Source: Leisingera methylohalidivorans DSM 14336 (GTDB lineage Bacteria; Pseudomonadota; Alphaproteobacteria; Rhodobacterales; Rhodobacteraceae). Taken from it: a stretch of DNA of 39,801 nucleotides. The stretch covers positions 1 to 39,801 of the forward strand of contig NC_023146.1 in assembly GCF_000511355.1 (NCBI RefSeq), given 5' to 3'. Of the stretch, positions 3,459-28,995 are shown one piece after another. A program made the translations under genes and the position numbers. Position 1 is the stretch's first letter, and each line of letters opens with the position of its first letter. The notes below the pieces were generated by a model that was not told the DNA's origin, made no database searches, and saw only the letters and a list, made by a program, of their open reading frames with translations.

Positions 3459-3652
3459 GCGGCAGAGCATGAAAAGGGAGGAAGAAGTCTGTAAAGGCCA
3501 CTGATGCGGCGTGATTTTCAGATAACATGCTCGCGCCGAAAATTTAAGCGAACAGCCCGAACTTTTGGCTTGGAAAGAAACCGGCGGCAGGGTTTTGTCA
3601 CGTAAACTCTGCGTCGGTTGTCGGTGTGCCGACATCAGCGCAATCGAAGTGT

Positions 3653-3753
3653 ATGATCCAGCCTTCGATCAGCTACAAACGCCACCGTTTCCCGCCCGAG
3701 ATCATCACTCACGCGGTCTGGCTGTACGTCCTCTTCAGCCTTAGCATGCGCTA
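3653..3753 (+). pseudogene. IS6-family transposase, 5' fragment
   Basis: From ATG 3653 the reading frame gives MIQPSISYKRHRFPPEII followed by THAVWLYVLFSLSMR, the typical start of IS6-family transposases (YKRHRFPPEIIxxAVWLY). It is cut at 3753 by the composite transposon, and the sequence resumes in frame after 7326 with VEGILLERGIDVSYESVRRW. If the insert and one TA copy are removed, the join reads atgcgc-TAG-gtcgaa, so an amber codon sits at the insertion point and the gene was probably already dead or dies there. IS6 terminal repeats were not found. Confidence 0.75.
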
Positions 3754-4604
3754 GGCCGTGTTGACAAAAGGGATTCACATCGGGTGCTGGGCGTGATTCA
3801 AGCTGCCATCTGCGATGGAGACCAGCTTGGCACGAGACCTGATGTCGGACGAAGAATGGGCCTTTTTTGAACGGTTCATCTTAGCGACCCGCGCCCCGAA
3901 CGGACGCAAGCCTATCAATCATCGCCTTATTCTCGATGGAAATTTTTGGGTCGCTCGAACCGGCGCTCCTTGGCGTGATCTGCCCGAGGAGTTCGGCAAG
4001 TGGTCTAGCGTCTACCGTCAGCTCCGGCGTTGGACCTTGGCAGGGCTCTGGGAACAGATCATGGATGGTTTGAACGAAAGTGGCGCAGTTCAGGACGTGC
4101 TGCAAATGATCGACAGCCCCGTGGTTCGCGCGCACCATCAGGCAGCGGGCGCTAAAGGGGGACTCCGAGACAGGGTTTCGGCCGTTCGAGAGGTGGCTTC
4201 ACGACCAAGATCCACCTCCTCGTCAATGCCGCCGGGTTGCCCATGAGAACCGAAATCACGCCAGGGCAAACGTCCGACTATCTGGGCTTTGAACTGGTCA
4301 TGGCCGACAACCTGCCCCAGCCTAAGATATTGCTCGCAGATCGGGGTTATGACGCTGACGGCATTCGCAAGTCTATGGATGACCGCGGCGTTCGGCCCGT
4401 GATCCCCATGCGCCGGTCCCGCAAAAAGCGCATCGGTGTGGACCGTTCTTTATATCGGCTTCGAAACCTGGTCGAACGATGTTTCAACAAGCTCAAGAAC
4501 GCCCGCAGGGTCGCAACCCGCTACGACAAGACAGCCGAGAGTTTCCTGGGCTTCGCCGACATCACGTCAATCCGCCTCTGGCTGCGCCATTTGTCAACAT
4601 GACC
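3754..4604 (+). mobile_element. IS5-family (IS427-type) insertion sequence, copy 1
   Basis: The element is 851 bp, with left end GGCCGTGTTGACAAA and right end complementary to GGTCATGTTGACAAA (13 of 15 positions match). TA flanks both sides (3752-3753, 4605-4606). It encodes one transposase in two overlapping frames. About eight base differences from copy 2 lie in the first half; none was noticed in the second half. Confidence 0.88.
3815..4602 (+). CDS. IS5/IS427-type transposase, made by -1 frameshift
   Basis: DDE transposase of the IS5 family in two overlapping frames: 3815-4246 and 4237-4602. The family sequence continues correctly if the ribosome slips back one base at AAAGGGGG (4154-4161), which turns AKGGLRDRV into AKGGTPRQGFGRSRGGFTTK. 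Catalytic features are the first Asp in MIDSPVVRAH, the second in LADRGYDAD and the Glu in YRLRNLVERCFNKLK (Y-R-E-K signature). The fused product would be about 260 aa. Frame slippage is a known control device in this IS group, so the element may be active. Confidence 0.85.
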
Positions 4605-4640
4605 TAACAAGCCCCAGCCGGCTGATCGCATCAAACTCGC

Positions 4641-5135
4641 TTAACGGAGCTTCTCGGCCACGAACTGCCCGACCGCCTGCTTGTTTTCCTCCCCAATCTC
4701 GACGTCGCCATCGTTAAGCAAATCCGCCAATGTCTGAGCACGCAAAGCATCCCGCCATAGCTTTTCGGCGGCCAGCATGCGCCTCTTTATGAAACAGTCC
4801 TTTTTGTATGCACAGGTGGCGTTTGTCGTAACACGACCTTTCTGGCGGATCTCCCGGCAAACATAGGCTGGACCGGGGCCATCGATGGCTTCGACCACAT
4901 CCAGCATGGACACCTCTTCTGCTGGTCGCATCAATCTGTACCCCCCCCGTGGCCCGGGAATGGCTTCGGTCACCGCCGCGGCCGTCAAAGCGCGCAGATG
5001 CTTTAGAAGGTAACTTTCTGAAAGACCATGCAGCGCCGCAAGGTCTTTTCCGGATAGGACTTTGTCCTTTGGCAAGGCCGCCAGAATAGCCGCGCAGTGC
5101 AAGGCCGCTTCCACGCCATCTCCCAAACGTCGCAT
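4641..5135 (-). CDS. Rrf2-family transcriptional regulator
   Basis: A 164-aa regulator with an N-terminal winged helix typical of Rrf2 proteins (LSGKDLAALHGLSESYLLKHLRALTAAAV, then GPRGGYRL) and the family's SMLDVVEAIDGP segment. Three cysteines (YVCREIR, NATCAYKKDC) in the position of the Rrf2 cysteine cluster could bind an Fe-S cluster or sense redox change. It is transcribed away from ahpD and the cupin. The shared 114-bp gap contains a 27-bp inverted repeat that is probably its operator. It is cargo of the composite transposon. The inducing signal cannot be read from the sequence; oxidative or electrophile stress is plausible from the neighbours. Confidence 0.85.
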   Translation of the reverse strand: MRRLGDGVEAALHCAAILAALPKDKVLSGKDLAALHGLSESYLLKHLRALTAAAVTEAIPGPRGGYRLMRPAEEVSMLDVVEAIDGPGPAYVCREIRQKGRVTTNATCAYKKDCFIKRRMLAAEKLWRDALRAQTLADLLNDGDVEIGEENKQAVGQFVAEKLR

Positions 5136-5187
5136 ACGAAATCCTTCCTAAACCTGATCATCTACCCGTTTAACGGTTGCAAAACTT

Positions 5188-5214
5188 AATCATAGATATA
5201 ATCTATCCATGATT
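5188..5214. promoter_or_regulatory. probable Rrf2 operator overlapping a -10 box
   Basis: The arms AATCATAGATA and, on the other strand, AATCATGGATA form an inverted repeat (10 of 11 matches) between the divergent Rrf2 gene and ahpD. A perfect TATAAT (5197-5202), oriented toward ahpD, sits inside the repeat. A bound regulator would therefore block RNA polymerase. No well-spaced -35 box was identified. Confidence 0.6.
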
Positions 5215-5249
5215 CGACTGCACTATCACTCCCCGAAAGGACCACGTCA

Positions 5250-5684
5250 ATGACAATGCGCTTCAACGTAGCAAAAGACACACCACAACTCTACAATGCC
5301 TTGTTGGCGCTAAACGCAGCTGTCGCCGAAGCTGATGTGGAGCCGCGTCTGATACACCTTATCAAAATCAGGGCTTCACAGATAAATGGTTGCGCGTTTT
5401 GCGTTGGCATGCACATCAAGGAAGCAGCGGATGACGGTGTGGGAGAGAATGTACTTCATCTGCTGCCCGTCTGGCAGGAATCCAGCGCGTTCAATGCGCG
5501 CGAAAAGGCCGCTCTTGCCTGGGCAGAGACGCTGACACTGCTGGCCGGCTCTGGCGTACCGGACGCCGCATTCGACGCGGCACGGGCGGAATTTTCTGAG
5601 CAAGAGTTGGCGGTGCTGACCGTGGCGGTTGGGGCAATGAACCTTTGGAATCGCATCGGCGTTGGCGCCCAGATGCCAGCCTGA
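5250..5684 (+). CDS. AhpD-like / carboxymuconolactone decarboxylase family protein
   Basis: A 144-aa protein of the AhpD-like fold. The diagnostic motif is INGCAFCVGMHIKEA at about residues 50-64, with a CxxC pair followed four residues later by His, the peroxidatic centre of AhpD-type alkylhydroperoxidases. The segment LIHLIKIRASQ before it and EKAALAWAETLTLL after it are also family-typical. It heads a two-gene unit with the cupin (23 bp apart) and is divergent from the Rrf2 gene, which likely controls it through the inverted repeat. A role in removing peroxides or reactive electrophiles is inferred from the family; the substrate is unknown. Confidence 0.85.
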   Translation: MTMRFNVAKDTPQLYNALLALNAAVAEADVEPRLIHLIKIRASQINGCAFCVGMHIKEAADDGVGENVLHLLPVWQESSAFNAREKAALAWAETLTLLAGSGVPDAAFDAARAEFSEQELAVLTVAVGAMNLWNRIGVGAQMPA

Positions 5685-5706
5685 ACCGAAGGAAAAAGGA
5701 TATATC

Positions 5707-6216
5707 ATGTCAATCGATAACGTGCGCTCCACCAGCTTCGCATCGGTCGCAAGGCGCGCCGCCTCTTGGCGACGGCCATGGCGCCGTCTGTCCGGTGCTG
5801 TTTTCTGCTGCCTTGTTGTAATTGCTACCTTGCTGATCACAGTGGCAGCAGGGAACGCACATGACGCCAAACCCGGCATTGCCGGTGTTCAGCGAGAACT
5901 GCTGCGCCAAATGCCTTTGCCAGATTCTCCCGGCCGGTTCGTGACCGCTTTGACGATCGAACTTGCCCCCGGCGCAGTGGTCGGGCCGCATCGGCATGGT
6001 GGGTTCGTCTATGTCTACCTGCTTGAGGGCAGGATTCGCAGTCAGCTGGAGGGGCAAAACCCCGTAGAATATAGCAGCGGGCAAAGCTGGACTGAGCCAG
6101 CAGAAGTGCTGCACAGGCGGACGGAAAATCCCAGCACAACAGAGCCTGCGAAGTTCCTGGCGGTCATCTATAGCGATGCCGATGCGGTGATCACGCGCCC
6201 CGAAACAGACAATTAG
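5707..6216 (+). CDS. membrane-anchored or exported cupin-domain protein
   Basis: A 169-aa protein with an arginine-rich N-terminus followed by a hydrophobic segment (LSGAVFCCLVVIATLLITVA, residues about 37-56), which suggests an inner-membrane anchor or long signal peptide with the cupin domain outside the cytoplasm. The cupin core shows GAVVGPHRHGGFVYVYLLEG (motif 1 with His ligands) and a later His in SWTEPAEVLHRR. The start at 5707 is chosen for the strong GGAAAAAGGA ribosome site; an upstream in-frame start would overlap ahpD. It is the last cargo gene of the composite transposon. The metal and substrate are unknown. Confidence 0.75.
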   Translation: MSIDNVRSTSFASVARRAASWRRPWRRLSGAVFCCLVVIATLLITVAAGNAHDAKPGIAGVQRELLRQMPLPDSPGRFVTALTIELAPGAVVGPHRHGGFVYVYLLEGRIRSQLEGQNPVEYSSGQSWTEPAEVLHRRTENPSTTEPAKFLAVIYSDADAVITRPETDN

Positions 6217-6473
6217 CCAGGCCTGATTTTGCAGAATTTTCGGAATCGCACATCGTGACCGAAGATATATTCAATCCATCCCCGGCAACGCGCTGGTCGG
6301 CATGCATCCCAGCGGGAACTACTAGACGAAACTGAGCTTGGAACACTGTGGACAGACGGATGACCTCGAATCGGTCCTGACCGCGATCTTCCAAGCTCAG
6401 GATCTCGAATTGGCCAAGCCAATCTGTGGCTGCATCGTCCATAAATGCCGGCTAATTGCCCGCACATTATTGA
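6217..6473. other. no recognisable gene between cupin and second IS copy
   Basis: This 257-bp stretch shows no convincing coding sequence on either strand, no clear terminator and no repeat. It is probably the remaining flank of the DNA captured between the two IS copies. Confidence 0.5.
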
Positions 6474-7324
6474 GGTCATGTTGACAAATGGCGCAGCCAG
6501 AGGCGGATTGACGTGATGTCGGCGAAGCCCAGGAAACTCTCGGCTGTCTTGTCGTAGCGGGTTGCGACCCTGCGGGCGTTCTTGAGCTTGTTGAAACATC
6601 GTTCGACCAGGTTTCGAAGCCGATATAAAGAACGGTCCACACCGATGCGCTTTTTGCGGGACCGGCGCATGGGGATCACGGGCCGAACGCCGCGGTCATC
6701 CATAGACTTGCGAATGCCGTCAGCGTCATAACCCCGATCTGCGAGCAATATCTTAGGCTGGGGCAGGTTGTCGGCCATGACCAGTTCAAAGCCCAGATAG
6801 TCGGACGTTTGCCCTGGCGTGATTTCGGTTCTCATGGGCAACCCGGCGGCATTGACGAGGAGGTGGATCTTGGACGTGAAGCCACCTCTCGAACGGCCGA
6901 AACCCTGTCTCGGAGTCCCCCTTTAGCGCCCGCTGCCGGATGGTGCGCGCGAACCACGGGGCTGTCGATCATTTGCAGCACGTCCGGAACTGCGCCACTT
7001 TCGTTCAAACCATCCATGATCTGCTCCCAGAGCCCTGCCAAGGTCCAACGCCGGATCTGACGGTAGACGCTAGACCACTTGCCGAACTCCTCGGGCAGAT
7101 CACGCCAAGGAGCGCCGGTTCGAGCGACCCAAAAAATTCCATCGAGAACAAGGCGATGATTGATAGGGTTGCGTCCGTTCGGGGCGCGGGTCGCTAAGAT
7201 GAACCGTTCAAAAAAGGCCCATTCTTCGTCCGACATCAGGTCTCGTGCCAAGCTGGTCTCCATCGCAGATGGCAGCTTGAATCACGCCCAGCACCCGATG
7301 TGAATCCCTTTTGTCAACACGACC
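6474..7324 (-). mobile_element. IS5-family (IS427-type) insertion sequence, copy 2 (inverted)
   Basis: Second 851-bp copy, in opposite orientation. The ends are GGTCATGTTGACAAA at 6474 and, on the minus strand, GGTCGTGTTGACAAA at 7324. The outer flank is TA, the inner flank GA. It differs from copy 1 at about eight positions, all noticed in the first half of the transposase; the second half encodes an identical protein. Confidence 0.87.
6476..7263 (-). CDS. IS5/IS427-type transposase, made by -1 frameshift
   Basis: Same two-frame DDE transposase as in copy 1, with frames 7263-6832 and 6841-6476 and the slippery AAAGGGGG run at 6924-6917. Replacements relative to copy 1 include RNPINHRLVLDGIFW for RKPINHRLILDGNFW, RQIRRW for RQLRRW, AVPDVL for AVQDVL and HHPAAG for HHQAAG. 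All catalytic motifs (IDSPVVRAH, LADRGYDAD, RNLVERCFNKLK) are intact, so either copy could supply transposase to both sets of ends. Confidence 0.84.
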
Positions 7325-7650
7325 TAGGTCGAAGGGATTCTGCTGGAACGCGGCATCGACGTTTCCTACGAGTCGGTCCGACGCTGGACCAGCAAGTTCG
7401 GGTCGCTGATCGCGCGCAACTTGCACCGGCGGCAGGCCCGCCCCGGCGATGTCTGGCACCTGGATTAAGTTGTCGTGAAAATCGCAGGCGGATCTTTCTG
7501 GCTCTGGGGGGGGCGGTCGATCAGCATGGGGTAGTATTGGACGAAATACTTCAGACCAGACGGGACAAGCGCGCCGCAAGACGTCAGCTGGTCAAGGTAT
7601 TGAAGCGACTTGGTTTTACCTCTGAACGGTTCGTGACGGACTCCGGCGGC
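7325..7650 (+). pseudogene. IS6-family transposase, middle fragment (continues 3653-3753)
   Basis: Directly after the transposon the frame gives VEGILLERGIDVSYESVRRW and, further on, RPGDVWHLD, the conserved first catalytic region of IS6 transposases. The next codon is TAA where family members have Glu (WHLDE). After the run of G at about 7507 the match moves to another frame, reading AVDQHGVVLDEILQTRRDK and later RFVTDSGG. The gene is thus broken by the insertion, at least one stop and a frameshift. Confidence 0.78.
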
Positions 7651-7804
7651 TGCGAAGAGCAGAAAGCGCCATTTTCCAAATCCTGCAAAGCACACCTGGT
7701 TTCCGCCCAAAGACCACTGTCAGGAAGCTACGCCGCGCGATGTCCCTCAGAACTTGTTTGTTCACGCTGGTCCCTCCTTCGTCTGTCAGACAGATTAAAA
7801 TCTG

Positions 7805-7979
7805 TTAGCCAAACTCAGAAATTCCATACATAACGCGTTCGCGCCTTCGGGCCAGTTGGTTTAAGTTTTCAGCCCGGTTATTCAAACCCTTGAGCGCGCG
7901 ATGCTCGACCTCGGGCATGATCTTGCGCTTTGCGGCCGGGTATGAGCGAAGTTTATCAGTAATCAGAACCCGTAGCGGA
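7805..7979 (-). pseudogene. IS6-family transposase, 3' fragment, opposite strand
   Basis: The minus-strand frame reads RVLITDKLRSYPAAKRKIMP, then EHRALKGLNNRAENLNQLARRRERVM and a stop at 7805. This is the characteristic C-terminal part of IS6 transposases (TDKLRSYxAA, HRxxKGLNNRAENSHQ). It faces the other IS6 fragment, so it comes from a different, inverted copy or from a rearrangement. The 150 bp between the two fragments show nothing recognisable. Confidence 0.72.
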
Positions 7980-13712: not shown

Positions 13713-16700
13713 CTAAACAATCAATTCGTGATTGGCGCGTGGTAGAAACAGCCGCTTCCAGATCACAAAGATCGCGGGGATGAGCAGAAGCGTCAGCAGC
13801 GTTGCGGTGGCCATTCCGCCAACCATGGGTGCAGCAATCCGCTGCATAATTTCAGAGCCGGTTCCACTGCTGTACATCACCGGAATCAAGCCTGCATAAA
13901 TGGTCGCTACGGTCATCACTTTGGGCCGGACCCGAAGCAGGGCGCCTTCAAAGACAACCTCTTCGATGTCCAAGCTTGTCAGGTCACGGCGCTCGGCACT
14001 GGCCGCCTCAACCCGGTTATTCCAGGCAACGTTGAGATAGAGCAGCATGACAATTGCCGTCTCAACCGCAACCCCGGCCAGTGCAATGAACCCGACCATT
14101 ACTGCCACGGAAATATCAAACCCAAGATACCAGGTCAGCCAAAGCCCGCCCGCCAGGGCCACCGGCAAGGCCGCCAATATGATTGCGACCTCAGTCACAC
14201 GGGAGAAGGCCAGGAACAGCATCAGGGTGATGATCAGCAATGTGGCCGGGGCTACCAGTGTCAATCTTTCCTGCATGCGCTGGATATATTCGTACTGCCC
14301 CGACCAGGTCAGGGAATACCCCGGCGGCAGCGTGACGGCCTCTGCCACCCGGGCACGGGCCTCATCCACATAGCCGCCGAGATCACGCCCTGCAATGTCG
14401 ATGAAGACTAATCCGGTTGGCCGGGCATTTTCGGATCGGATCATGCTGGGGCCATCGACGATGCTGATTTCGGCCACTGCGCCCAGAGGAATATGGGCGC
14501 CTGATGGCGTCACCACCGGCAGATTGCGGATTTTTTTCCGGGCTGTCGCGCCATTCCTGAGGATAGCGCAAGTTGATCGGGAACCGCTCCAGGCCTTCGA
14601 CGCTTTCGGACACTTGCAAGCCGCCAATGGCGGTCTGAACAACGTCTTGGATCTCATGCACGCTCATCATGTAAAGCGCCGCGGCCTTGCGATCGATATC
14701 GATCTCGACAAAACGGCCGCCGGCGGGACGTTCCGCATAGGCAGAGACGGTGCCTTCGATATCCGATACGGCGCGCTCCATTTCGATCCCGATACCTTCG
14801 ATGACCGAAAGATCCGGACCCGGCACCTTTACCCCCACCGGGCTTTTGATGCCGGTTGCCAGCATGTCGATACGGTTTTTAATCGGCTGGATCCAAACGT
14901 TGGTTACGCCTGGAACCTGCACAATCCGGTCCAATTCGCGTCGGATGAGCTCCAGTGTCATGCCTTCGCGCCACTCAGACTCAGGTATCAGCTGGATCAT
15001 CGTCTCCAGCATTGTCAGCGGCGCCGAGTCCGTCGCAGTGTCGGCACGGCCCAGCTTGCCATGCACAGACTGGACCTCTGGAACCGCGGCAATCAGACGG
15101 TCGGTCTGCTGCAGCACCTCGCGCGCCTTGCCGATCGATACGCCGGGATAGAGCGACGGCATATATAGCAGATCGCCTTCGTTCAGCTCTGGCATGAATT
15201 CGGTTCCGATGCGCTGCAGCGGCCAAGCCATGGACACAACCAGGGCCATGGCCAGGGCAGAAGTTGCCCAGGGCCAGGCGACAGCGGCGTCAAGAAACGG
15301 CCGGTAGAGCCAGATAACCAGACGGTTCAGCGGGTTTTTGCGTTCGGGGAGAATCCGCCCGCGCACAAGATAGCCCATTAGAACCGGCACCAGTGTAATC
15401 GACAAAATAGCCGCGGCGGCCATGGCATAAGTCTTGGTGAATGCTAGCGGTTTAAACAGCCGGCCCTCCTGGCTTTCCAGCACAAACACCGGCAGAAAGC
15501 TAACCGCGATAATCGCCAGCGAGAAAAACAGCGCAGGCCCCCACTTCAGTGGCGCATTCAGAGACAATCCGCCATCTGTTCTCGCGGGTTACCGGCTCTT
15601 TCTCAATGCGCCGGTGCATCGCCTCGATCATAACGATGGCCGCATCGACCATGACACCGATCGCAATCGCAATACCGCCCAAGGACATAATGTTGGCATT
15701 CACGCCCTGCAGCTTCATGACGATGAAGGCGGCAAAGATGCCCAGCGGCAGCGACAGCGTAATCACCAGAGACGACCGCAGGTGCAAAAGAAAGGCGCCA
15801 CAGACCAGGATCACCACAATCAATTCTTCGGTCAATTTGTGTCAAAGGTTTTCCACCGCCCGCTCAATAACACCGGACCGGTTGTAGGTGGTCACAAGCT
15901 CCACGCCTTCGGGGAGGTTCGGACGGATTTCCTCGATCAGGGCTTCGCCGGCCTTAATTGTGGCCAGAGCATTACCGCCCCAGCGCAGGATCACGACCCC
16001 GCCGACGGCATCGCCTTCGCCATTAAACTCGCCGACCCCGCGGCGCATTTCCGGGCCAAACCGGATTTCGGCCACATTACCCAATGTGATGGCGGCACCG
16101 CGCGCATTGACCATCAGAGGCGCAGCAGCGATATCGGCAAGTTCGTCCACATATCCTGTGGAGCGGACCATATATTCGGCCTCGCCCATCTCGATCACGC
16201 TGCCCCCGGTTTCCCGATTGGCCTGTTGGATGGCCTTTTTGGCAGCGCTAAGCGGCACATTGTAGGCGCGCAGCTTATTCGGATCGACAACCACCTGATA
16301 CTGCTTGACCATGCTGCCGATTGTCGCGACCTCAGAGACGCCTTGGACGGTTTGAAGTTCGTATTTGAGGAACCAGTCCTGCAGCGTTCGGAGCTGTGCA
16401 AGGTCGTTTCGGCCTGTGCGGTCGATCAATGCATATTGATAGATCCAGCCGACACCGGTGGCATCTGGGCCGATTTGCGGCACCACCCCCTCGGGCAGGT
16501 TCGCCGAGATCTGCCCCAGGTATTCCAGCACCCTGGTACGGGCCCAGTTTGGATCAGTGCCCTCGTCGAACACGATGTAGACATAGCTGTCGCCAAAAAA
16601 TGAAAACCCGCGCACGTCGGTCGCCCCCGGCACCGCCAGCATCGCAATGGCAACCGGGTAGGTGACCTGATCCTCGATCACCTGCGGCGATTGCCCAGGG

Positions 16701-16858
16701 TAGGAGGTTTTGACGATCACCTGAACGTCGGACAGATCCGGAATAGCGTCAACCTCAGTTGAGCGCAGCGCCCAGACCCCTGCCAGTGCAATCATCAGCG
16801 ACACCGCAAGCACGATCATCCGGTTGGCAATTGAAAGGCGGATAATTGCAGCAATCAT
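13713..16858 (-). pseudogene. cusA: CusA/CzcA-type heavy-metal RND efflux pump, broken
   Basis: With its defects repaired this would be about 1047 aa, the normal length of a CusA inner-membrane proton antiporter. Recognisable parts are the start with ALRSTEVDAIPDLSDVQVIV, the first transmembrane helix, FSFFGDSYVYIVFDEG, the permease motif IAIAIGVMVDAAIVMIEAMH and the C-terminal helices ending in LTLLLIPAIFVIWKRL. Three lesions are visible: an in-frame TGA at 15842-15844 (NL*HKLTEEL, where relatives have Ser), an extra G in a five-G run at 15538-15542, and an extra A in a seven-A run at 14531-14537. The two homopolymer changes could be assembly errors, but the stop and the damaged cusB support real decay. 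Its start overlaps the ancestral end of cusB. CusA versus CzcA is decided by the CusF-bearing partner. Confidence 0.85.
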
Positions 16859-19071
16859 TGATCTGCCTCCTTCATTGGGGCTGTACCAACCAGCGTCAGC
16901 ATATCGGACGCAGCGCGGGTCATCAGAAGAACGCTCTCTTACCCCAGCTTGAGATCCTCAACCGCCATTTCAGGCGAAATTGCGAAATTCATCGTCATGC
17001 CTGGCATGCCAATCTCGGCAATTGGGCCGTGGGTAATATTTGCAGTGGATGCTTCCAGGTCGATCTTATTGATCGCGCCCAAAACACGGATGGGCGAGTT
17101 TGCCGGCTCAGCTGAGGACAAGACCAGAGTCATACCGTCTTCCCGCAGAAACGTCAGCATCATGTCCTTGTTTGTCGCCAGCGTGGCTGCATCGAGTGTT
17201 TCAGCCAAGGTGAAATCCATAGTCATGGCTGGCATGCCGAACTCAGGGATCGGGCCGTGGCTGATCGTTGCCTTACGCTGGGCAGTAACAATTTGCTTGA
17301 TTTGACCCGCTGCAACAATTGGCGCCGCGCCCTCTTCGGCGGTCTCCATTGGCGGCTCTGCTGCAGCAGCTGGCTGATTTGACTCCGGTTTGGCCTCGTC
17401 CGGTGAACGAACAGCCACAACGATGTAGAGACCGTCTTCACCTTTGGCGAGATCGAAGGCCACAGCTTCCCCGAGCGGAATGGCATCCTGATCCACGCCG
17501 GAAACGGACATTTCCATTTCCATAGCCGACCAGCCCAATTCCGGGATCGGATCGTGCCGTAATGCCAGCTTACCATCATTGGTGACCGCATCAATGACGC
17601 CTATGGCGGTGGCCACAACGCCATCATTGGAGCCGAGGTCAATCAGCGACAGACGCCCATCAGCGCCACGGGCCGCACGGAAAGCCACCTCCTGGCCTGC
17701 CGTCAGATGGCCGATTTCCAAATCGGCCCGCACTGGGAATTGTGATACCATGGCTGGCCAGCCGAGACTGTCGAGCTCATCATGCTGAACCGTCGCCAGA
17801 CGTGCTACCAGGTCCAGCGCCACAAGGACCCCTTCGCCGCGGGCGGGTTCCACATCGGTTGGTGCCATTCTGATAAAGCCTGCCGACAGCGCGCTTTCGC
17901 TGTCGATCAGAAACTGCGCCGAGGCCACCACTACTTCGCCGGGGGCCAGACCCTGGATGACTTCTGTCCGGTTGCCGTCCCCGAATGTGCCCCGCAATCC
18001 GGTTGTGATCAGGCGTGGCTTGAAAGTGCCCTTGGCGGTCTTGAGAATGACCCGCTCGGAGTGGCCAGTTCGGATGATGGCCTCGTTCGGAACTGTCACC
18101 GCAGAGCGTGTTTGCCGCGGTGACAGCGCGACAGTGCCGAACATGTTCGGCTTCAGCAGCCCTTCAGTATTGTCAAAACGCAGCCGCACCGGCAGCGTGC
18201 GGGTGGTGGCATCCAATTCGGGATAAATTTAGTCTACTTTTCCTTCAAAGACCCGGCCCGGCAAATGCTTAAACCGGGCTTTGGCTTCCATCTCAGTGGA
18301 CAAGCGGGCCAGATCCTTCTCGAAAACGTCAGCGACGAGCCATTCACTTGACAAATCAGTCAAGGAGACAGACCTGATGTCGGGTTCCAAGAACATTCCG
18401 TCGGCGGCCTTCACAGAGAGCACTATGCCGTTTTGCGGTGCGTATACCCGCAGCCTGCGGGCCAAGTTGCCGGAGCGGGCAATTTCATAGATCTGCTGCT
18501 GCGAAACACCTAGACTGCTCAGCTTTCGTTTTGCCACATCTACGATGCGCTGGTCTCCGGCTTCAATTGCGCGCACAAAGTCGGCGCTGGAGGATCCGAT
18601 TTCCTGGGAGAACATCTCAAACAGCAGCTCGGCCTTGGAAACCCGGTCTCCAACCGCAAGCGTTCTTAACTGTTCGATCCAGCCTTCGACGCGGGTGTGC
18701 ACGTGGCTGGTCAGATGTTCGTTGTAGCCGATAAAGCCAACGGTTTCGATCCGTTCAGAAAGGGGTTCAACCTGGGCCAGGGCGGTGCGCACGCCAATGG
18801 CATTAATTTCCGCAGCCGACAGCTGGACCTCGGCAGGGTCGCCTGAAGGCTCCTGGCCAGCGTAAACCGGGACCAGGTCCATACCCATCGGTGATTTTCC
18901 GGGTCCGTCCCGGCGGAAATTCGCATCCATCGGTGCAACCCAATAAAGGATTTCGGCACCGGCACCCCCGCCTGCGGCGGTCGCATCCAGGTAGTGTCTC
19001 TCCCCCAGCGCCCCGATCGCCAGGCCGGAACCCAAAGTTAATAAAAGCAATGCAGCATAACGTCCGCGCAT
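16855..19071 (-). pseudogene. cusB: CusB-type periplasmic adaptor with four CusF-like domains, broken
   Basis: Ignoring two in-frame TAA codons this encodes about 738 aa. The start at 19071 gives a signal or anchor (MRGRYAALLLLTLGSGLAIG). Next come a heavy-metal-binding segment (YWVAPMDANF...GKSPMGMDLVPVY) and the hairpin and barrel regions of the adaptor (HVHTRVEGWIEQL, LPVRLRFDNTEGLLKPNMFG). The C-terminus carries four CusF-like repeats whose metal motifs lie near 17760-17790, 17520-17560, 17221-17262 and 16990-17032. The stops are at 18229-18231 (GKVD*IYPEL, where Tyr is usual) and 16939-16941 (LKLG*ESVLLM). Beyond the second stop the frame continues to a TGA that overlaps the cusA ATG (ATGA), confirming the original extent. 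Role in copper/silver export is inferred from the family. Confidence 0.85.
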
Positions 19072-19870: not shown

Positions 19871-19960
19871 CATTGCGCGCAGAGCCTAGACCTCTGCGCG
19901 CAATGAATATTTAAAAGCGGCAGTTTATCGATTTAGGCGGCATTGTTCGCAGAGGTCTAG
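19871..19960. repeat. cluster of perfect inverted repeats
   Basis: A perfect 14-bp inverted repeat, CATTGCGCGCAGAG (19871-19884) and CTCTGCGCGCAATG (19892-19905), is separated by 7 bp. A second perfect 13-bp pair, CTAGACCTCTGCG (19886-19898) and CGCAGAGGTCTAG (19948-19960), uses part of the same sequence. The latter copy includes the stop codon of the upstream AhpD-fold gene. There is no T-tract. The set could end transcription between two convergently used regions or mark an old rearrangement joint. Confidence 0.65.
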
Positions 19961-20496
19961 TCAAACTTCTGAAACGGTTTGTCGACCGGCGTTTTTGCAA
20001 GATGGTTGGTGTAGTTCGACATTACCTTCTGCGCATAACCCAAGATGATGTCGAGGATGTTCTGCCGGGTGAAGCCTGCATCGAGAAAAGCCTGCACGGA
20101 TGCCTCAGTCAGGTTGCCGCGTTCGCGCACGATCTTGAGCGTGAAGTCGCGCAGAGTTTCGAGACGGGCGTTCGGCAGCGGTGTCTGATTGCGCAGAGCA
20201 TCGGTTATTTCCAGGTCGACCTTCATGCCGTGGGCAATGGCGGTATGGGCTGGAACGCAGTAACTGCAAGTGTTCTCGACATTGATGGTCTGCCAGACAA
20301 CGGTCAGTTCATCCTTGCCGAAACTGGAATTCTGAAACAATTCATGCACGCGCTGATAGGCCTCAAGCAACTGGGGCGACTCGGCCATGACCGCATGCAG
20401 GTTTGGGATCATGCCAAATGCGGCCTTGGAATTCTCCAAAAGCGGCTTAGACGCTTCAGGCACGGTGGTTTCGTCATGAAGGGTGAAATCTGTCAT
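19957..20496 (-). CDS. AhpD-like / carboxymuconolactone decarboxylase family protein
   Basis: A 179-aa alkylhydroperoxidase-fold protein with the active motif NTCSYCVPAHTAIA near residues 75-88 (CxxC, then His). Segments LLENSKAAFGMIPNLHAVM and the C-terminal NILDIILGYAQKVMSNYTNH are typical of the peroxidase-related branch. The start at 20496 (MTDFTLHDETT) is chosen for its GGAG ribosome site. It is divergent from a TetR regulator, and two operator-like repeats lie in the gap, so repression by that regulator is likely. It is not closely similar to the AhpD-like protein inside the composite transposon. Substrate unknown. Confidence 0.87.
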   Translation of the reverse strand: MTDFTLHDETTVPEASKPLLENSKAAFGMIPNLHAVMAESPQLLEAYQRVHELFQNSSFGKDELTVVWQTINVENTCSYCVPAHTAIAHGMKVDLEITDALRNQTPLPNARLETLRDFTLKIVRERGNLTEASVQAFLDAGFTRQNILDIILGYAQKVMSNYTNHLAKTPVDKPFQKFD

Positions 20497-20565
20497 CGTT
20501 GGTCTCCGTTGCAATGATGCTAACCCGAGTCAGGAGCCCGGATCGCGAGAACTGATGTAAGGAGT

Positions 20566-20605
20566 TTGAGTGATCACTCAACCATAGACTTGAACAATCA
20601 CTCAA
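20566..20605. promoter_or_regulatory. tandem TetR operator sites
   Basis: A perfect 16-bp palindrome TTGAGTGATCACTCAA (20566-20581) is followed 24 bp on by a second copy, TTGAACAATCACTCAA (20590-20605), matching at 13 of 16 positions. Both lie between the divergent AhpD-fold gene and the TetR gene, the usual place for an autoregulated TetR operator. They also argue against a TetR start upstream of 20668, because the first site would otherwise be inside the coding region. Confidence 0.75.
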
Positions 20606-20667
20606 TCTTGAAGCCAAGATCCCGAAGAAGCCGGGACATTTCCGTTGGCGCGCTTTATTCTGTGGTT

Positions 20668-21276
20668 ATGAAACGCGCGCGCCCTTATGACCGAGACTCC
20701 GCATTGAATGCTGCAATGAACTTGTTCTGGAGAAAAGGTTATCACGCCACATCTTTGAAGGACCTTGAATTCGCGCTGAACATGAAGCCGGGCAGCATTT
20801 ACGCTGCCTTTCACAGTAAGGAGGCGCTCTTTTTGGCGTCGCTCGAGCGGTATATGCAGGTTAACCAGGTTCGTCTCGGTGAATTGCTGGCCGGAACGGG
20901 GTCTCCGCTGGCCGCTCTTGCCGAATTTCTGCGCAGCTTCGTGTATCCGGCAAACGAGGCCCGAGGACCGCAGGTCTGCATGATTGTCAAGTCTATGTTA
21001 GAGGCGACAGACGCAGATAAAGCAATTGCAGAAGCCGCCCGCACCTATTTGGACAATATGACCGGCGAGATCATCGCGCTTTTCCGCGCTGCGCAAGACA
21101 GTGGCGAGCTGCCGGGCGACGCCGATGCGGTGCTTCTGGGGCGGCGCTATCTTCTGAACCTCACGGCCCTGCGCATCGAGGCGCAGTGGACAAGGTGTGG
21201 CGCTGAGCTAAAGCAGCTGGCGGAGAGCATGGCGCAGGAGGTTGAGGCCCTGGCTATACGTTCTTCCGAAAACTGA
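20668..21276 (+). CDS. TetR/AcrR-family transcriptional regulator
   Basis: A 202-aa regulator. The N-terminal helix-turn-helix shows ALNAAMNLFWRKGYHATSLK and LEFALNMKPGSIYAAFHSKEALF, the classic TetR DNA-binding pattern of the branch with a Phe-Trp-x-x-Gly-Tyr core. The ligand domain follows (residues about 70-200). The start at 20668 (MKRARPYDRDSA) is preferred because homologues begin here and because the tandem operators lie just upstream. Divergent from the AhpD-fold gene, which is its likely target. Ligand unknown. Confidence 0.88.
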   Translation: MKRARPYDRDSALNAAMNLFWRKGYHATSLKDLEFALNMKPGSIYAAFHSKEALFLASLERYMQVNQVRLGELLAGTGSPLAALAEFLRSFVYPANEARGPQVCMIVKSMLEATDADKAIAEAARTYLDNMTGEIIALFRAAQDSGELPGDADAVLLGRRYLLNLTALRIEAQWTRCGAELKQLAESMAQEVEALAIRSSEN

Positions 21277-21490: not shown

Positions 21491-22568
21491 GACCGCGTTG
21501 CACGAATAGCGCCCGGGCCGCAATTGCCCCTTTCCCCGGCTCGTTATGCGACACGCTGATAGGCTGCACGACCGAGACGGGTCATGCGGTTGAGGGCGTT
21601 GACAGCGATGCGGGCTTCGGTTGCCTGGGTCTCCATGTTGCAGCTGCGCAGTTCCTGTCCGATGAGCTGTTTGTAGCGCCCGATCTGGGCCTCGCCGCGC
21701 GATCTCTGACCATAACCGGTGGCCTTCTGCCATGCCATTCGGCCAGTTTCGGTTATCATGTCGATATGAGCGTTGCGTGCCTGGCAATTTCCGGGAACAG
21801 CGTTCTTCGGCGGCGGAATGATCAGTTCGACATCCGAGCCAAACGCCTGCCGGATTGTCACGCCGGTTGGTACACCATCATAAGCCCCGTCTCCGATGAA
21901 ACGGCGCACCCGACCGGACACCTCGGCAAGAAGGTCGGGCAAAGCGCCTGTGTCCCCGACATGCTGGGGTGTCAGGCAGGACGCCACAAGCTCGCCGCTC
22001 TCCAGATCGAAGCCTATATGCAGTTTGCGCCATATCTTACGGGCCTTCGGCAGCCCGTGCTTCTCCCGCATCCACTCGCGGCCACCGTGGACACGCAGCC
22101 CTGTGCTGTCCACAACCAGCGCGATCGGACCACTGGCTGTCCGGGTGTCAGGCGCGATCTGAAGCGATGGCGAACGCCGGCAAAGCGTCGAAAAATCTGA
22201 CACGGGGAGGTCCGCCTGCATGAGCCGCAGCAAACTGCGGACAAAGCCCTGCGTTTGGCGAAGCGGCAAGCCGAACACGGCGCGCAGGGTCAAGCAGGTC
22301 TCGATCGCCAGATCAGAATATCGTTGTTGACCACCGCGCTTGCCAGAGCGCACTGCGCACCACCGAGACACCGCGTCTTCGCTGAACCAGACCGTTACGT
22401 CACCACGCTGGCGGAGCGCCTCATTGTATTCGGCCCAGTTCGTCACACGGTACTTTGGCTTCGCAAACTTATCCCGCCGCGACGCGTTGAATTTGAAAGG
22501 CATCCCAGCATCCCGCAGTCAAATCGAAGGACCAGCTACGCATCGGAAACGATTTGTGCAACACGCTC
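21491..22568 (-). mobile_element. IS5-family insertion sequence (IS903-like group)
   Basis: About 1078 bp. The ends are GACCGCGTTGCACGAAT at 21491 and, on the minus strand, GAGCGTGTTGCACAAAT at 22568, matching at 14 of 17 positions. The core GTTGCAC is typical of this IS5 subgroup. No direct target duplication is visible, so the element is old or its flanks have been rearranged. The exact outer bases are uncertain by a few positions. Confidence 0.7.
21544..22503 (-). CDS. IS5-family transposase
   Basis: A 319-aa DDE transposase in one uninterrupted frame. It begins KFNASRRDKFAKPKYRVTNW and has the three catalytic regions ALVVDSTGLRVHG (Asp), FIGDGAYDG (Asp) and GQRSRGEAQIGRYKQLIG (Glu). It has the normal length for the IS903-like subgroup and no visible lesions. 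It differs clearly from the two-frame transposases of the composite transposon. Confidence 0.88.
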   Translation of the reverse strand: MPFKFNASRRDKFAKPKYRVTNWAEYNEALRQRGDVTVWFSEDAVSRWCAVRSGKRGGQQRYSDLAIETCLTLRAVFGLPLRQTQGFVRSLLRLMQADLPVSDFSTLCRRSPSLQIAPDTRTASGPIALVVDSTGLRVHGGREWMREKHGLPKARKIWRKLHIGFDLESGELVASCLTPQHVGDTGALPDLLAEVSGRVRRFIGDGAYDGVPTGVTIRQAFGSDVELIIPPPKNAVPGNCQARNAHIDMITETGRMAWQKATGYGQRSRGEAQIGRYKQLIGQELRSCNMETQATEARIAVNALNRMTRLGRAAYQRVA

Positions 22569-23489: not shown

Positions 23490-24281
23490 TTGCCCCGCGC
23501 GATCGCCAGAGCAGAGGTTTCCGCGCATGTGCGGGACGGCTGTTCGAGGCTGAAGACGCTGCATCAATCCGGAGCGCTGAAGCTGCTGTTTCCGCAGGGC
23601 CGTCCGGATGTCGAGGCGGTTGCGGTCAATACCGCTGGCGGCATCACCGGCGGGGACGATTTCCGGCTTGCAGCCACCGCCCATGCGGAGGCCGGCTTGA
23701 CGGTTACCACCCAGGCGGCAGAACGCATCTACCGGGCGCTGCCGGGCCAGACCGCCAGGGTGGAAACCCGGCTCTGCGCCAAGGCCGGCGCCAGGCTGAA
23801 CTGGCTGCCGCAGGAAACCATTCTGTTCAACGGCTGCGCCCTGCACCGCCGCCTGATTGCGGAGCTGGAACCCGGTGCGCAGTTTTTGCTGATTGAACCG
23901 TTTGTCTTCGGCCGCGCTGCAATGGGCGAAACACTTACGCATGCGACGGTCCGCGACCGGATCGAAATCCGGCGCGGCGGCAGTCCTATCTACCTCGATG
24001 CCACGGCGCTTGCCGGAGATGCCGCCGCTATGCTGCAGCGGCGCGCAGTTGCGGGCGGCGCCGGCGCCATGGCTTCACTTGTGCTGGTGGCGCCGGAGGC
24101 CGAAGTGAAGCTTGATCCGCTGCGCCGGATGCTGCCGGAGACCGGAGGCGCCTCCTTGCTTGGGCCGGATCTTCTGGTGCTCCGCCTGCTTGCCCGGGAC
24201 GGTTTTGCCCTGCGCCAATGCCTTGTTCCGGTGCTGGAGCGGCTGCTGTCCGCGGGGCTGCCGCGCACATGGATGCTTTGA
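23490..24281 (+). CDS. ureD: urease accessory protein UreD
   Basis: A 263-aa accessory protein that forms the UreD-UreF-UreG complex on apo-urease for nickel insertion. Family segments are [27 protein letters not shown] near residues 32-58, [29 protein letters not shown] and the C-terminal LRRMLPE region. The usable start is TTG at 23490, giving [12 protein letters not shown]; no in-frame ATG lies nearby upstream, so the start is uncertain. First gene of the ureDABCEFG operon, 14 bp before ureA. Confidence 0.88.
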
Positions 24282-24295
24282 AGAAGGAGGAGCGG

Positions 24296-24598
24296 ATGAA
24301 CCTGACCCCGCGCGAAAAGGACAAGCTGCTTATCGCCATGGCTGCCGAAGTCGCCCGCAAGCGGCTGGACCGCGGCGTCAAGCTGAATCACCCGGAAGCG
24401 ATTGCGCTGATTTCGGATGCGGTGGCCGAGGGCGCCCGCGACGGCCGCACGGTGGCTGAGATGATGGAGGCCGGCGCCCAGGTGGTCAGCCGGGATCAAT
24501 GCATGGAAGGGGTGCCCGAAATGATCCGCGATGTGCAGGTCGAGGCCACATTTCGCGATGGCACCAAGCTGGTGACCGTTCACCAGCCTATCCGTTGA
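24296..24598 (+). CDS. ureA: urease gamma subunit
   Basis: A 100-aa protein with the standard length and sequence of Ure[51 protein letters not shown], and [25 protein letters not shown] near the end. The start at 24296 follows an AAGGAGGAG ribosome site. With UreB and UreC it forms the structural core of cytoplasmic urease, which hydrolyses urea to ammonia and carbon dioxide. Confidence 0.95.
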
Positions 24599-24648
24599 AC
24601 CCCCGCCCGGTGCCGGACGCCCCGAACCACCCCAAGACAGGAGAAAGC

Positions 24649-24816
24649 ATGATACAACCAATACCCGTTACCGTCGCGGTTAGCGCTCTTGCGGCGGGTC
24701 CCGCCCTGGCTCACGGCGGAGCGCATGTCCATCCGCATGAGGTCGGCCTCTGGCTTGTCTTTGCAGTGCTGGCGGCGCTTGCCGCAGGCGCAGTTCTGGC
24801 CTGGAGGCGGAAGTGA
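24649..24816 (+). CDS. small His-rich membrane protein in urease operon
   Basis: A 55-aa protein with an N-terminal hydrophobic leader ([21 protein letters not shown]), a short His-rich stretch ([10 protein letters not shown]) and one transmembrane helix ([21 protein letters not shown]) ending in WRRK. If the leader is cleaved after ALA, the histidines would be just outside the membrane. A GGAGAAAG ribosome site precedes ATG 24649. Its TGA overlaps the GTG start of ureB (GTGA), so it is translated inside the operon. A nickel-handling or membrane-linked role is conceivable from the histidines, but no function is established here. Confidence 0.7.
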
Positions 24817-25118
24817 TCCCGGGTGAGCTGTTCCCGGCCGGAGGCAGCCTGACGCTGAATGCGGGCGCCGAAGCCACCACTCTGATGGTCGCCAATACCG
24901 GCGACCGGCCGGTCCAGGTGGGCAGCCATTACCATTTTGCCGAGGCTAACCCGGCGCTGGATTTCGACCGGGCGGCGGCCCGCGGGCGGCGGCTCGACAT
25001 TGCTGCAGGCACCGCCGTGCGGTTCGAGCCGGGGCAGCGGCGCGAGGTGCAGCTGATCCTGATCCTCGGCAGGCGCCGTGTGTTCGGGTTCAACCGGAAA
25101 GTCATGGGAGTGCTCTGA
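24813..25118 (+). CDS. ureB: urease beta subunit
   Basis: A 101-aa protein of normal UreB length, starting with [21 protein letters not shown], then [33 protein letters not shown] and GQRREVQLI, the conserved core. The start overlaps the stop of the small membrane protein by 4 bp. One base separates its stop from the ureC start. Structural subunit of urease. Confidence 0.95.
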
Positions 25119-25119
25119 C

Positions 25120-26829
<1,710 letters not shown>

Positions 26830-26978
26830 AATTGAGCACCGGGAGAAAAACATGAGTAAAGTCACAGCACCGCGCCACGTTCGCGGCAATCAGGCGGCGA
26901 AAAACCTGGCCCGCTTTGCCGACCTGGCATACCCTATGCGTCAGAGGGAGGAGCTCACTGGAAAAGGAGTGATCTCCA

Positions 26979-27203
26979 ATGGCAGAAATCTCACACATTA
27001 TCACCGGCAGGCCGGAGTTAGCGGGCATCCTGCGCCGCTGTTTTGCGGCTGTGGGCAATGCATTGGTCGCTATTGCGGAAGCGGATTCACGCATGCGTGC
27101 CGCGCGGCAGTTGAACGCGATGAGCGACGAGGAACTTGCCGAACGGGGCCTGAGGCGCGAGGACATCGTGCGCCATATCTTCTCAGACAGGTTCTACATT
27201 TGA
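26979..27203 (+). CDS. DUF1127-domain small protein in urease operon
   Basis: A 74-aa protein whose C-terminal half matches the DUF1127 pattern common in alphaproteobacteria: RMRAARQLNAMSDEELAERGLRREDIVRHIF. A strong AAGGAG ribosome site lies 8 bp before ATG 26979. DUF1127 proteins are small, often Arg-rich, and in some bacteria affect RNA turnover and carbon, nitrogen or phosphate metabolism; what this one does is unknown. Its place between ureC and ureE in the same direction makes it part of the urease transcript. An alternative frame from 26852 with its own ribosome site overlaps it but shows no domain. Confidence 0.7.
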   Translation: MAEISHIITGRPELAGILRRCFAAVGNALVAIAEADSRMRAARQLNAMSDEELAERGLRREDIVRHIFSDRFYI

Positions 27204-27234
27204 GGCCGTTGGCCGTCGGCACAGGAGCGTACGG

Positions 27235-27732
27235 ATGAACGCGCCTATGCTGACTGCCCGGGCATATCATGGCCATGCTCATGCCGCCGCCCCGGTGGAC
27301 CAGGTGGTGCTGGACTATGAAGCCAGGTTCCTGCGCCGCAAGGTGCTGCAGACCGAAGGCGGCGACCACCTGCTGGTTGACCTTCCGCAGACCACCTCGC
27401 TGGAGCACGGCGGCGTGCTGGTTCTGGAGGACGGCGGTGAAATCGCCGTCGCAGCCGCAGCTGAGCCGCTGCTGCAGATCACCGGAGATGGGCTGTTGCG
27501 GCTGGCCTGGCATATCGGCAACCGCCACACCCCCTGCCAGATCGAGGATATGCGGCTGCTGATCCGCCAGGACCACGTGATCCGCGCAATGCTGGTGCAA
27601 CTTGGCGCCACAGTGGAAGAGGTGACGGAGCCCTTCACCCCCGAAGGCGGCGCCTATGGCCACGGGCGGACCCATTCCCACGAACACGGCCATTCCCTTC
27701 ATCACGGTCCGGAGCACAGCCATGAGCATTAA
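27235..27732 (+). CDS. ureE: urease accessory protein UreE (nickel chaperone)
   Basis: A 165-aa nickel metallochaperone. The central part has the UreE pattern LAWHIGNRHTPCQIEDMRLLIRQDHV with the conserved His used for nickel. The C-terminus is a His-rich tail ([23 protein letters not shown], given here only as a composition: ten histidines in the last 23 residues) that stores extra nickel. The stop TAA overlaps the ureF start region by 11 bp, so translation is coupled. Confidence 0.92.
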   Translation: MNAPMLTARAYHGHAHAAAPVDQVVLDYEARFLRRKVLQTEGGDHLLVDLPQTTSLEHGGVLVLEDGGEIAVAAAAEPLLQITGDGLLRLAWHIGNRHTPCQIEDMRLLIRQDHVIRAMLVQLGATVEEVTEPFTPEGGAYGHGRTHSHEHGHSLHHGPEHSHEH

Positions 27733-28369
27733 TCCCGGGCCAGTGGTGCTGCTGCAGTGGCTGTCTCCGGCTTATCCGGTGGGCGCATTCGCCTGGTCCC
27801 ACGGGCTGGAAACTGCGGTTGCCCGCAAGGAGGTGACCGATGGGGCAGGGCTGGAAGCCTGGCTGGGTGATCTGCTGCTGTTTGGCAGTGCCCGCACGGA
27901 CGCAATTCTGCTGGCCGCTGCCTGCCGCGCCAAAGACATGGCCGCGCTGGCAGAGGTGGACGCCACCGCCCGCGCATTTGCTCCCTCCCGGGAACGTCTG
28001 GCTGAAACAGTTGAACAGGGCGCCGCCTTCTGCCGGGCCACGTCGGAGGTCTGGGGCGGCAGCCTGCCCCGTCTCAGCTATCCGGTGGCTGTTGGCCGTG
28101 CCGCGTGCATGCACGGGCTGGCGCTGGACCTGACGCTGCACATGTTCACACATGCCTTTGTTTCTAACCTGATTTCGGCAGCCCAGCGGCTGCTGCCGGT
28201 TGGCCAGATCGAAGGCCAGCGCATTCTGAAAAACCTTGGCCCGCTGGTATCCGATGCAGCGAAGAACGCGCTCACTTCGGACCTGTCCAGCCTCTCCAGC
28301 GCCTGTTTTGCTGCGGATGTCGCCTCGATGGTTCATGAAACACAATATTCAAGGATTTACCGGTCATGA
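27722..28369 (+). CDS. ureF: urease accessory protein UreF
   Basis: A 215-aa all-helical accessory protein that bridges UreD and UreG. Typical segments are [21 protein letters not shown] at the N-terminus, the variable middle, [14 protein letters not shown] and the C-terminal [20 protein letters not shown]. The start at 27722 lies inside the end of ureE, and the stop overlaps the ureG ATG (ATGA), an arrangement suited to making the three chaperones in fixed ratio. Confidence 0.92.
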
Positions 28370-28995
28370 CTTCTCCCCACGGTCCATTGCGGGTCGGAAT
28401 CGGCGGACCGGTCGGTGCGGGCAAGACCACGCTGACCGCCCAGCTTGCCCGTATTCTGTCGCCGCATCACTCGATCGGGGTGATCACCAATGACATCTAC
28501 ACCCAAGAGGACGCCGAGGCGCTGATGCGGATGCAGGTGCTGCCGCAGGACCGGGTGATCGGGGTCGAGACCGGCGGCTGCCCGCATACCGCGATCCGCG
28601 AGGATGCGTCGATCAACCTTGCCGCGGTGGCCGAGATGGTACGGCGCCACCCGGATGTGGAGATCGTGCTGATCGAAAGCGGCGGCGACAATCTCTCTGC
28701 CACCTTCAGCCCCGAACTGGCCGATGTAACTCTGTATGTGATCGACGTCGCGGCGGGTGAAGAGATCCCGCGGAAGGGAGGGCCGGCGATTACCCGCTCT
28801 GACCTGTTGATCGTCAACAAGACGGATTTGGCGCCCCATGTCGGCGCATCGCTCGACGTGATGGCGCGCGATGCCGCGCGGATGCGCGGATCGCTTCCCA
28901 CGGTGTTCACCAGCTTGCGGCACGGCAAGGGGGTTGCCGAAGTTGTCCGCCATCTTTGTGCAATCGGAGGTCTTACTTTCGCGGTCCCGCTGTAG
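28366..28995 (+). CDS. ureG: urease accessory GTPase UreG
   Basis: A 209-aa SIMIBI GTPase that powers nickel transfer into urease. The P-loop [13 protein letters not shown] lies at residues 12-24. The nickel-binding CPH motif is in [17 protein letters not shown] near residue 70, followed by [18 protein letters not shown] and the base-recognition [10 protein letters not shown]. Last gene of the urease operon. A weak hairpin (AGCGG/CCGCT, 28994-29008) at the stop has no T-run. Confidence 0.95.

Follow-up and report, generated by a model that had tools for sequence, protein, structure and literature searches.

Organization of the locus

The window, that is, the whole 39,801-nucleotide stretch analysed here, is the start of the 220,701-bp contig C3 of Leisingera methylohalidivorans DSM 14336, whose genome consists of three contigs (4.65 Mb). 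It contains a unit of 3,571 bp (3754-7324) in which two inverted 851-bp copies of an insertion sequence (IS) enclose 1,869 bp with genes for an Rrf2-family regulator, an AhpD-like protein and a cupin. We argue below that this unit is probably a composite transposon which inserted as a whole at a single CTAG in the remnant of an IS6-family transposase gene. The features of the locus, from left to right, are as follows.

3590..3753 (+): 5' half of the IS6-family transposase remnant, 88-89% identical to copies on contig C2 of the same genome; the left end of the element is at ~3590 and the half ends in the target TA
3752..3753 (no strand): left target duplication, TA
3754..4604 (+): left IS, 851 bp, IS5 family, IS427-like, both transposase frames open
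3815-4246 (+): orfA of the left IS, open; the overlapping -1 frame, orfB, runs to 4602 and is open
4605..4606 (no strand): inner flank of the left IS, TA
4641..5135 (-): Rrf2-family regulator, RsrR-like, 164 amino acids, PF02082 at 96.4 bits
5188..5214 (no strand): candidate operator between the Rrf2 and AhpD-like genes, a 27-bp imperfect dyad of 11-5-11 structure
5250..5684 (+): AhpD-like protein (carboxymuconolactone decarboxylase family), 144 amino acids, PF02627 at 65.5 bits, with CAFC and a following His
5707..6216 (+): cupin, 169 amino acids, PF07883 (Cupin_2) at 44.9 bits
6472..6473 (no strand): inner flank of the right IS, GA where TA is expected
6474..7324 (-): right IS, 851 bp, inverted with respect to the left copy and likewise with two open transposase frames
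7325..7326 (no strand): right target duplication, TA
7327..7579 (+): 3' part of the IS6-family remnant, 85% identical to a C2 copy, with a further stop 46 residues on

The flanking IS pair

The inverted arms (3751-4605 and 6473-7327) span 855 nt and are 99% complementary, and the two IS copies proper are identical at 842 of 851 positions, with nine substitutions between them. The DDE transposase is encoded in two overlapping frames (IS positions 44-490 and 403-846), and the halves match PF13340 and PF01609/PF13586 in Pfam. The 18-bp terminal ends agree at 15 positions in the left copy and at 16 in the right. The initial annotation of this DNA had described two inverted 851-bp copies of IS5/IS427 type around the Rrf2, AhpD-like and cupin genes, in a unit of 3571 bp with TA outside both outer ends; the exact ends, the Pfam matches and the TA dinucleotides at 3752-3753 and 7325-7326 bear out both statements. 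Length, ends and 2-bp duplication agree with a placement of this element in the IS427 group of the IS5 family, and its size and TA duplication fit the group criterion of ~0.83-0.87 kb (sizes from a table in the available part of PMC3281130). Two members of that group, ISPaes1 and ISPbe2, are given in the same part of the source with a length of 851 bp, terminal repeats of 18 bp that agree at 16 and 15 positions, and a 2-bp duplication (PMC3281130); the IS described here shares the length, the 18-bp ends and the 2-bp duplication, and is likened to them by these table features, not by sequence.

A search of the genome for this IS returned six matches, two of them full length, both at the composite block; the other four are fragments of 77-192 bp with 73-85% identity. 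TA adjoins three of the four ends of the pair, the exception being the inner end of the right IS. For comparison, ends were inspected in 27 of 38 related IS loci, and since L060 and L123 each lacked one end, 25 remained, of which 21 had TA on both sides (exceptions L054, L055, L126 and L127). Because single copies of the same type also sit between TAs, the TA dinucleotides by themselves cannot decide whether the unit transposed, and a 2-bp target duplication outside the outer ends is weak evidence when taken alone. We do not claim gene conversion between the two IS copies, the clustering of the nine differences being too weak for that (largest gap 399 bp, P ~0.03 by simulation).

Probable insertion into an IS6-family remnant

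The outer flanks of the unit are two halves of one IS6 gene; they meet at a single TA, and no part of the gene is lost there. In BLAST against contig C2 the halves are adjacent, and the three IS6-family sequences examined on C2 all run uninterrupted across the insertion point in the alignment. On contig C3 of genus genome G019 the left half has a weak match (76%), which likewise adjoins a match to the right half (87%) without interruption. The assignment to the IS6 family comes from a C2 copy of the target gene, which matches PF13610 (DDE_Tnp_IS240); the short IS6 piece from the window, when searched alone, gave no Pfam match.

When the IS6 flanks are joined with one TA, the phase is kept and the product reads SLSMR-stop-VEGILLERG, with a TAG at the junction. 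Since the joined flanks give this stop, the target probably already carried a nonsense change. Judged from the sequence, the target was probably dead before the insertion took place, and the nonsense change would also have created the CTAG.

The unit was searched in 21 genus genomes, own genome included, with up to 14 candidates scored per genome. The whole-unit query matched in 18 of the 21. The initial annotation had proposed a search for the unit in other genomes as one of its checks, and this check came out negative: the unit was not found in the 20 other genus genomes, and the matches listed there cover the IS part only. They include full-length copies, the closest of them 85.5-87% identical, and one 514-bp stretch at 90%. 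In the other genus genomes the main matches to the left flank extend no further than the beginning of the IS6 remnant (~3590), those to the right flank start after it (~8043 or later), and the IS6-like matches that lie in between are all short or weak and come from other contigs or places. In Leisingera sp. S132 the same neighbours enclose three different genes, and its plasmid NZ_CP083558.1 (71,659 bp) carries lpdA. A search of plasmids with positions 3600-7800 returned 22 records, all of which match IS parts only, at 83% at most, and the cargo tail (6214-6473) had no match in plasmids. By tblastn against plasmids, the cupin query gave 394 records, all below 60%, and the Rrf2 query gave 168, one of which, from Mameliella alba, falls between 60 and 80% (63%).

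Origin of the unit

The unit has the same IS at both ends, cargo other than IS genes between them, and TA outside the outer ends, as a composite transposon has. The initial annotation read it as a whole-unit insertion at one CTAG, and this is indeed the simplest reading, given that the IS6 halves rejoin and that the target's three relatives within this genome are uninterrupted. We put the probability that the 3,571-bp block is a composite transposon, inserted as a whole unit at one CTAG in the IS6-family remnant, at about 0.85. Transposase from one or both IS copies would have treated the two outer (left) ends as those of a single element, and the unit would then have inserted into the IS6 remnant, duplicating TA. 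The locus is a readable case of gene capture, in which the outer ends, the target, uninterrupted target relatives in the same genome and IS-free cargo relatives are all visible.

Several observations weigh on the other side. No empty site at the locus was found in the genus genomes, nor did searches with the cargo in 121 relatives and 394 family genomes, and with the unit in the 21 genus genomes, reveal the unit, or the cargo with the IS, at a second location; the words 'direct evidence', which the initial annotation used for transposition of the unit, are too strong on both counts. The three C2 sequences read GA, not TA, at the site (GCGC-GA-GGTCG in two and GCGC-GA-AGTCG in one, and GCGC-TA[unit]TA-GGTCG in the window), which requires the assumption that the target had changed a base before the insertion. 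The right IS is bordered on its inner side by GA rather than TA. When the nine differing IS sites were compared with 12 concordant IS relatives, the left copy alone deviated at three and the right copy alone at two, the other four being unassigned, so that the unit would not be a fresh event, or the IS copies would have been unlike already when the unit formed. Because the copies differ at nine sites, with changes private to each, the present mobility of the unit is uncertain. The initial annotation was silent on this 1% divergence, on the non-TA inner flank of the right IS and on the stop at the junction; its rejoining of the IS6 frame with one TA holds as far as the phase is concerned and omitted the TAG.

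The nine differences, with private changes in each copy, also suit an account by which the unit transposed a single time in the past and has since lost its mobility, with the module retained for its own function. The altered inner flank of the right copy and the decay of the IS6 target speak for it too, and the transposase frames, open in both IS copies, speak against it. Its odds overlap with those of whole-unit insertion, from which it differs about the present only, and we rate it as somewhat less than an even chance.

It is improbable, by comparison, that a lone IS entered the IS6 remnant first and that homologous recombination between IS copies subsequently brought in the cargo and the second IS. 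In favour of this reading are the near-identity of the two copies and the frequent occurrence of related ISs in the genus. Integration of a circle by crossover within an IS leaves direct repeats. The copies here are inverted, not direct, and an extra inversion of one IS alone would be required. Least probable of all are two independent single-IS insertions flanking a module that was already inside the IS6 remnant: the left copy taken alone has TA on both sides, as a simple insertion and most single copies (the 21 of 25 above) do, but the module must then have pre-existed in the IS6 gene and have ended exactly at both IS ends, the outer flanks form one IS6 gene complete at the join, and full-length copies of the IS are absent elsewhere in the genome. 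It would take a strong coincidence for two lone insertions to hit precisely the edges of a block within one gene, and composite transposition is therefore favoured.

A known composite transposon offers a comparison for the whole-unit insertion that we prefer. One composite transposon, Tn6097, was captured in a study of Paracoccus; it comes from Paracoccus ferrooxidans, measures 17,759 bp, is flanked by identical copies of ISPfe2 (IS1634 family), made a 6-bp duplication and was caught on a trap plasmid (available part of PMC3281130). As far as that part of the source describes it, the unit resembles Tn6097 in being alphaproteobacterial, in its two convergent IS copies, in having non-resistance genes in its cargo, in the short target duplication and in lying inside a disrupted gene. 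It differs in its IS5-family pair, its size of 3.6 kb and its 2-bp TA duplication, and in that movement is here inferred from the sequence. An element of this kind is well known and the history of the insertion is clear; the cargo is the more interesting part.

The cargo genes and their relatives

Each of the three cargo proteins exceeds its Pfam cut-off. The AhpD-like protein also matches TIGR00778 (38.3 bits against a cut-off of 27.8), has the AhpD core domain with its CXXC and His, and matches 2gmy, 2ijc, 2o4d and 7xw1 in the PDB. Two of these, 2gmy (Atu0492, E 2.3e-43) and 2o4d (PA0269, E 1.8e-36), are near full-length matches and are named hypothetical proteins; a chain that is named AhpD, 6k40, is only a distant match (E 0.0044). 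The cupin has an N-terminal hydrophobic stretch, noted by eye, and is perhaps exported. It has 53 relatives besides itself, the nearest three cupins (P0002, P0003 and P0004) being 89%, 85% and 83% identical.

The AhpD-like query led to 16 loci in named genomes. At two of them the Rrf2, AhpD and cupin genes occur together: L017, from Roseovarius marisflavi, with protein identities of 90%, 90% and 72%, and L018, from a metagenome-assembled genome, with 82%, 75% and 63%. The remaining 14 had no Rrf2 match at E 1e-3, and six of these Rrf2-less loci had a cupin match. Homology with L017 spans window positions 4629-6285, most of the cargo, with ~190 bp at 6286-6472 lying outside. The IS was not seen, within the stretch examined per locus, at any of six loci (L017, L018, L037, L038, L039 and L040), and the module therefore exists without the IS. 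DNA searches with the cargo, own genome included and two candidates scored per genome, matched in five of 121 relatives and in 12 of 394 family genomes; beyond the own genome, matches of more than 100 bases occur in G129, G051, G283 and G423 only, the others covering 23-36 bases. The GC content is 56% in the cargo and 61% in the remainder of the window. The cargo may be derived from another alphaproteobacterium, perhaps a relative in the roseobacter group.

A candidate redox sensor and its candidate operator

Against the PDB, the Rrf2 protein matches 6hsd (E 2.5e-35) and 6y45 (E 7.3e-34), the next best match being at 1.5e-7. The structure 6HSD is RsrR, a [2Fe-2S] redox sensor with two Cys from one subunit and His and Glu from the other as cluster ligands, as described in the available part of PMC11138216. 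Glu9, His13 and three Cys in the second half of the Rrf2 protein are invariant in seven aligned sequences. Its Glu and His align with those of RsrR; among its Cys residues, one is aligned and a second lies one position away. Trp9 of RsrR, which is described as rotating upon reduction in the available part of PMC11138216, is replaced by Ala in the alignment. RsrR of Streptomyces venezuelae recognizes 11-3-11 repeats and is believed to regulate its own gene as well as a divergent one for an NmrA-type regulator (available part of PMC5015018), and related Rrf2 proteins are treated in PMC9338935, of which likewise a part was available. The protein described here thus resembles RsrR in its Rrf2 family, the aligned N-terminal Glu and His, Cys near the C-terminal half, a divergent target and an inverted repeat between the genes. 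It differs, as far as those excerpts go, in the 11-5-11 structure of its dyad, against 11-3-11, and in an AhpD-cupin target in place of an NmrA-type one.

The dyad between the Rrf2 and AhpD-like genes reads AATCATAGATA-TAATC-TATCCATGATT. It is the sole match in the window at three or fewer mismatches, and 100 shuffles gave none. The exact pattern was found in four of 394 family genomes and the pattern shortened by two bases in seven of 292 order genomes, own genome included in both, and a backward-pattern control gave zero in the genomes listed for the family and order searches. Relatives of Rrf2 and AhpD adjoin the dyad in all seven distinct other genomes that have it; the two genes are divergent in four, and in three they are in tandem with the dyad upstream of Rrf2. 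A cupin is present in one of the seven (3-kb loci). The dyad is also found in L017 and L018. The dyad thus predicts its neighbouring genes, which makes the function of the Rrf2/AhpD pair directly testable.

The tandem arrangement was observed at L132, L135 and L136, where the same dyad lies upstream of Rrf2 and is kept though the gene order differs.

A mechanism may be sketched from these features. The RsrR-like Rrf2 protein would bind the candidate operator at 5188-5214, repressing itself and the divergent AhpD-cupin pair, and would release the dyad upon a redox change of its iron-sulphur cluster; the AhpD-like and cupin proteins might then act on peroxides or related compounds. The initial annotation had called the cargo self-regulated, and the conserved dyad lends this support, the regulation itself being an extrapolation from sequence. 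Both the present mobility of the unit and the redox control of the cargo are in this sense what we infer. Two findings pull the other way: in the three tandem genomes among the seven with the dyad, the Rrf2 relative is only 46-47% identical, and L038 and L040 have the Rrf2-AhpD pair without the exact dyad. On balance we propose tentatively, at just under even odds, that the cargo is an undescribed, self-contained alphaproteobacterial redox switch, in which an RsrR-type [2Fe-2S] Rrf2 protein and an 11-5-11 operator would govern an AhpD-like protein, alone or together with an exported cupin, and which would travel as a composite transposon of 3.6 kb because less than 2 kb suffices for its sensor, operator and effectors. 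No description of an Rrf2-AhpD-cupin cargo or of its transposon was found in the full-text literature with the few terms tried, subscription papers being mostly outside the coverage.

Surroundings of the unit

Transfer genes at 34-39.8 kb of the window are 86-89% identical to those of five Leisingera and Phaeobacter plasmids. Positions 7829-7979, which lie between the IS6 remnant and lpdA, consist of debris with an 83% match to positions 48545-48695 of contig C2, and several dead elements are perhaps piled up there. Genes for CusA/CusB-like metal efflux, recognized by eye, lie at 13713-18216 (-) and are broken into several reading frames, apparently decayed. A second AhpD/CMD-like protein and a TetR-like gene, both assigned by eye, are divergently arranged at 19957-20514 (-) and 20566-21276 (+). 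The AhpD/CMD-like protein of this pair had no Pfam match at 0.001, and the two may form a further regulator-peroxidase pair on this plasmid. A DDE transposase gene with an open frame (PF13737/PF01609) is located at 21544-22503 (-), and a urease gene cluster, recognized by eye, occupies 23490-28995 (+).

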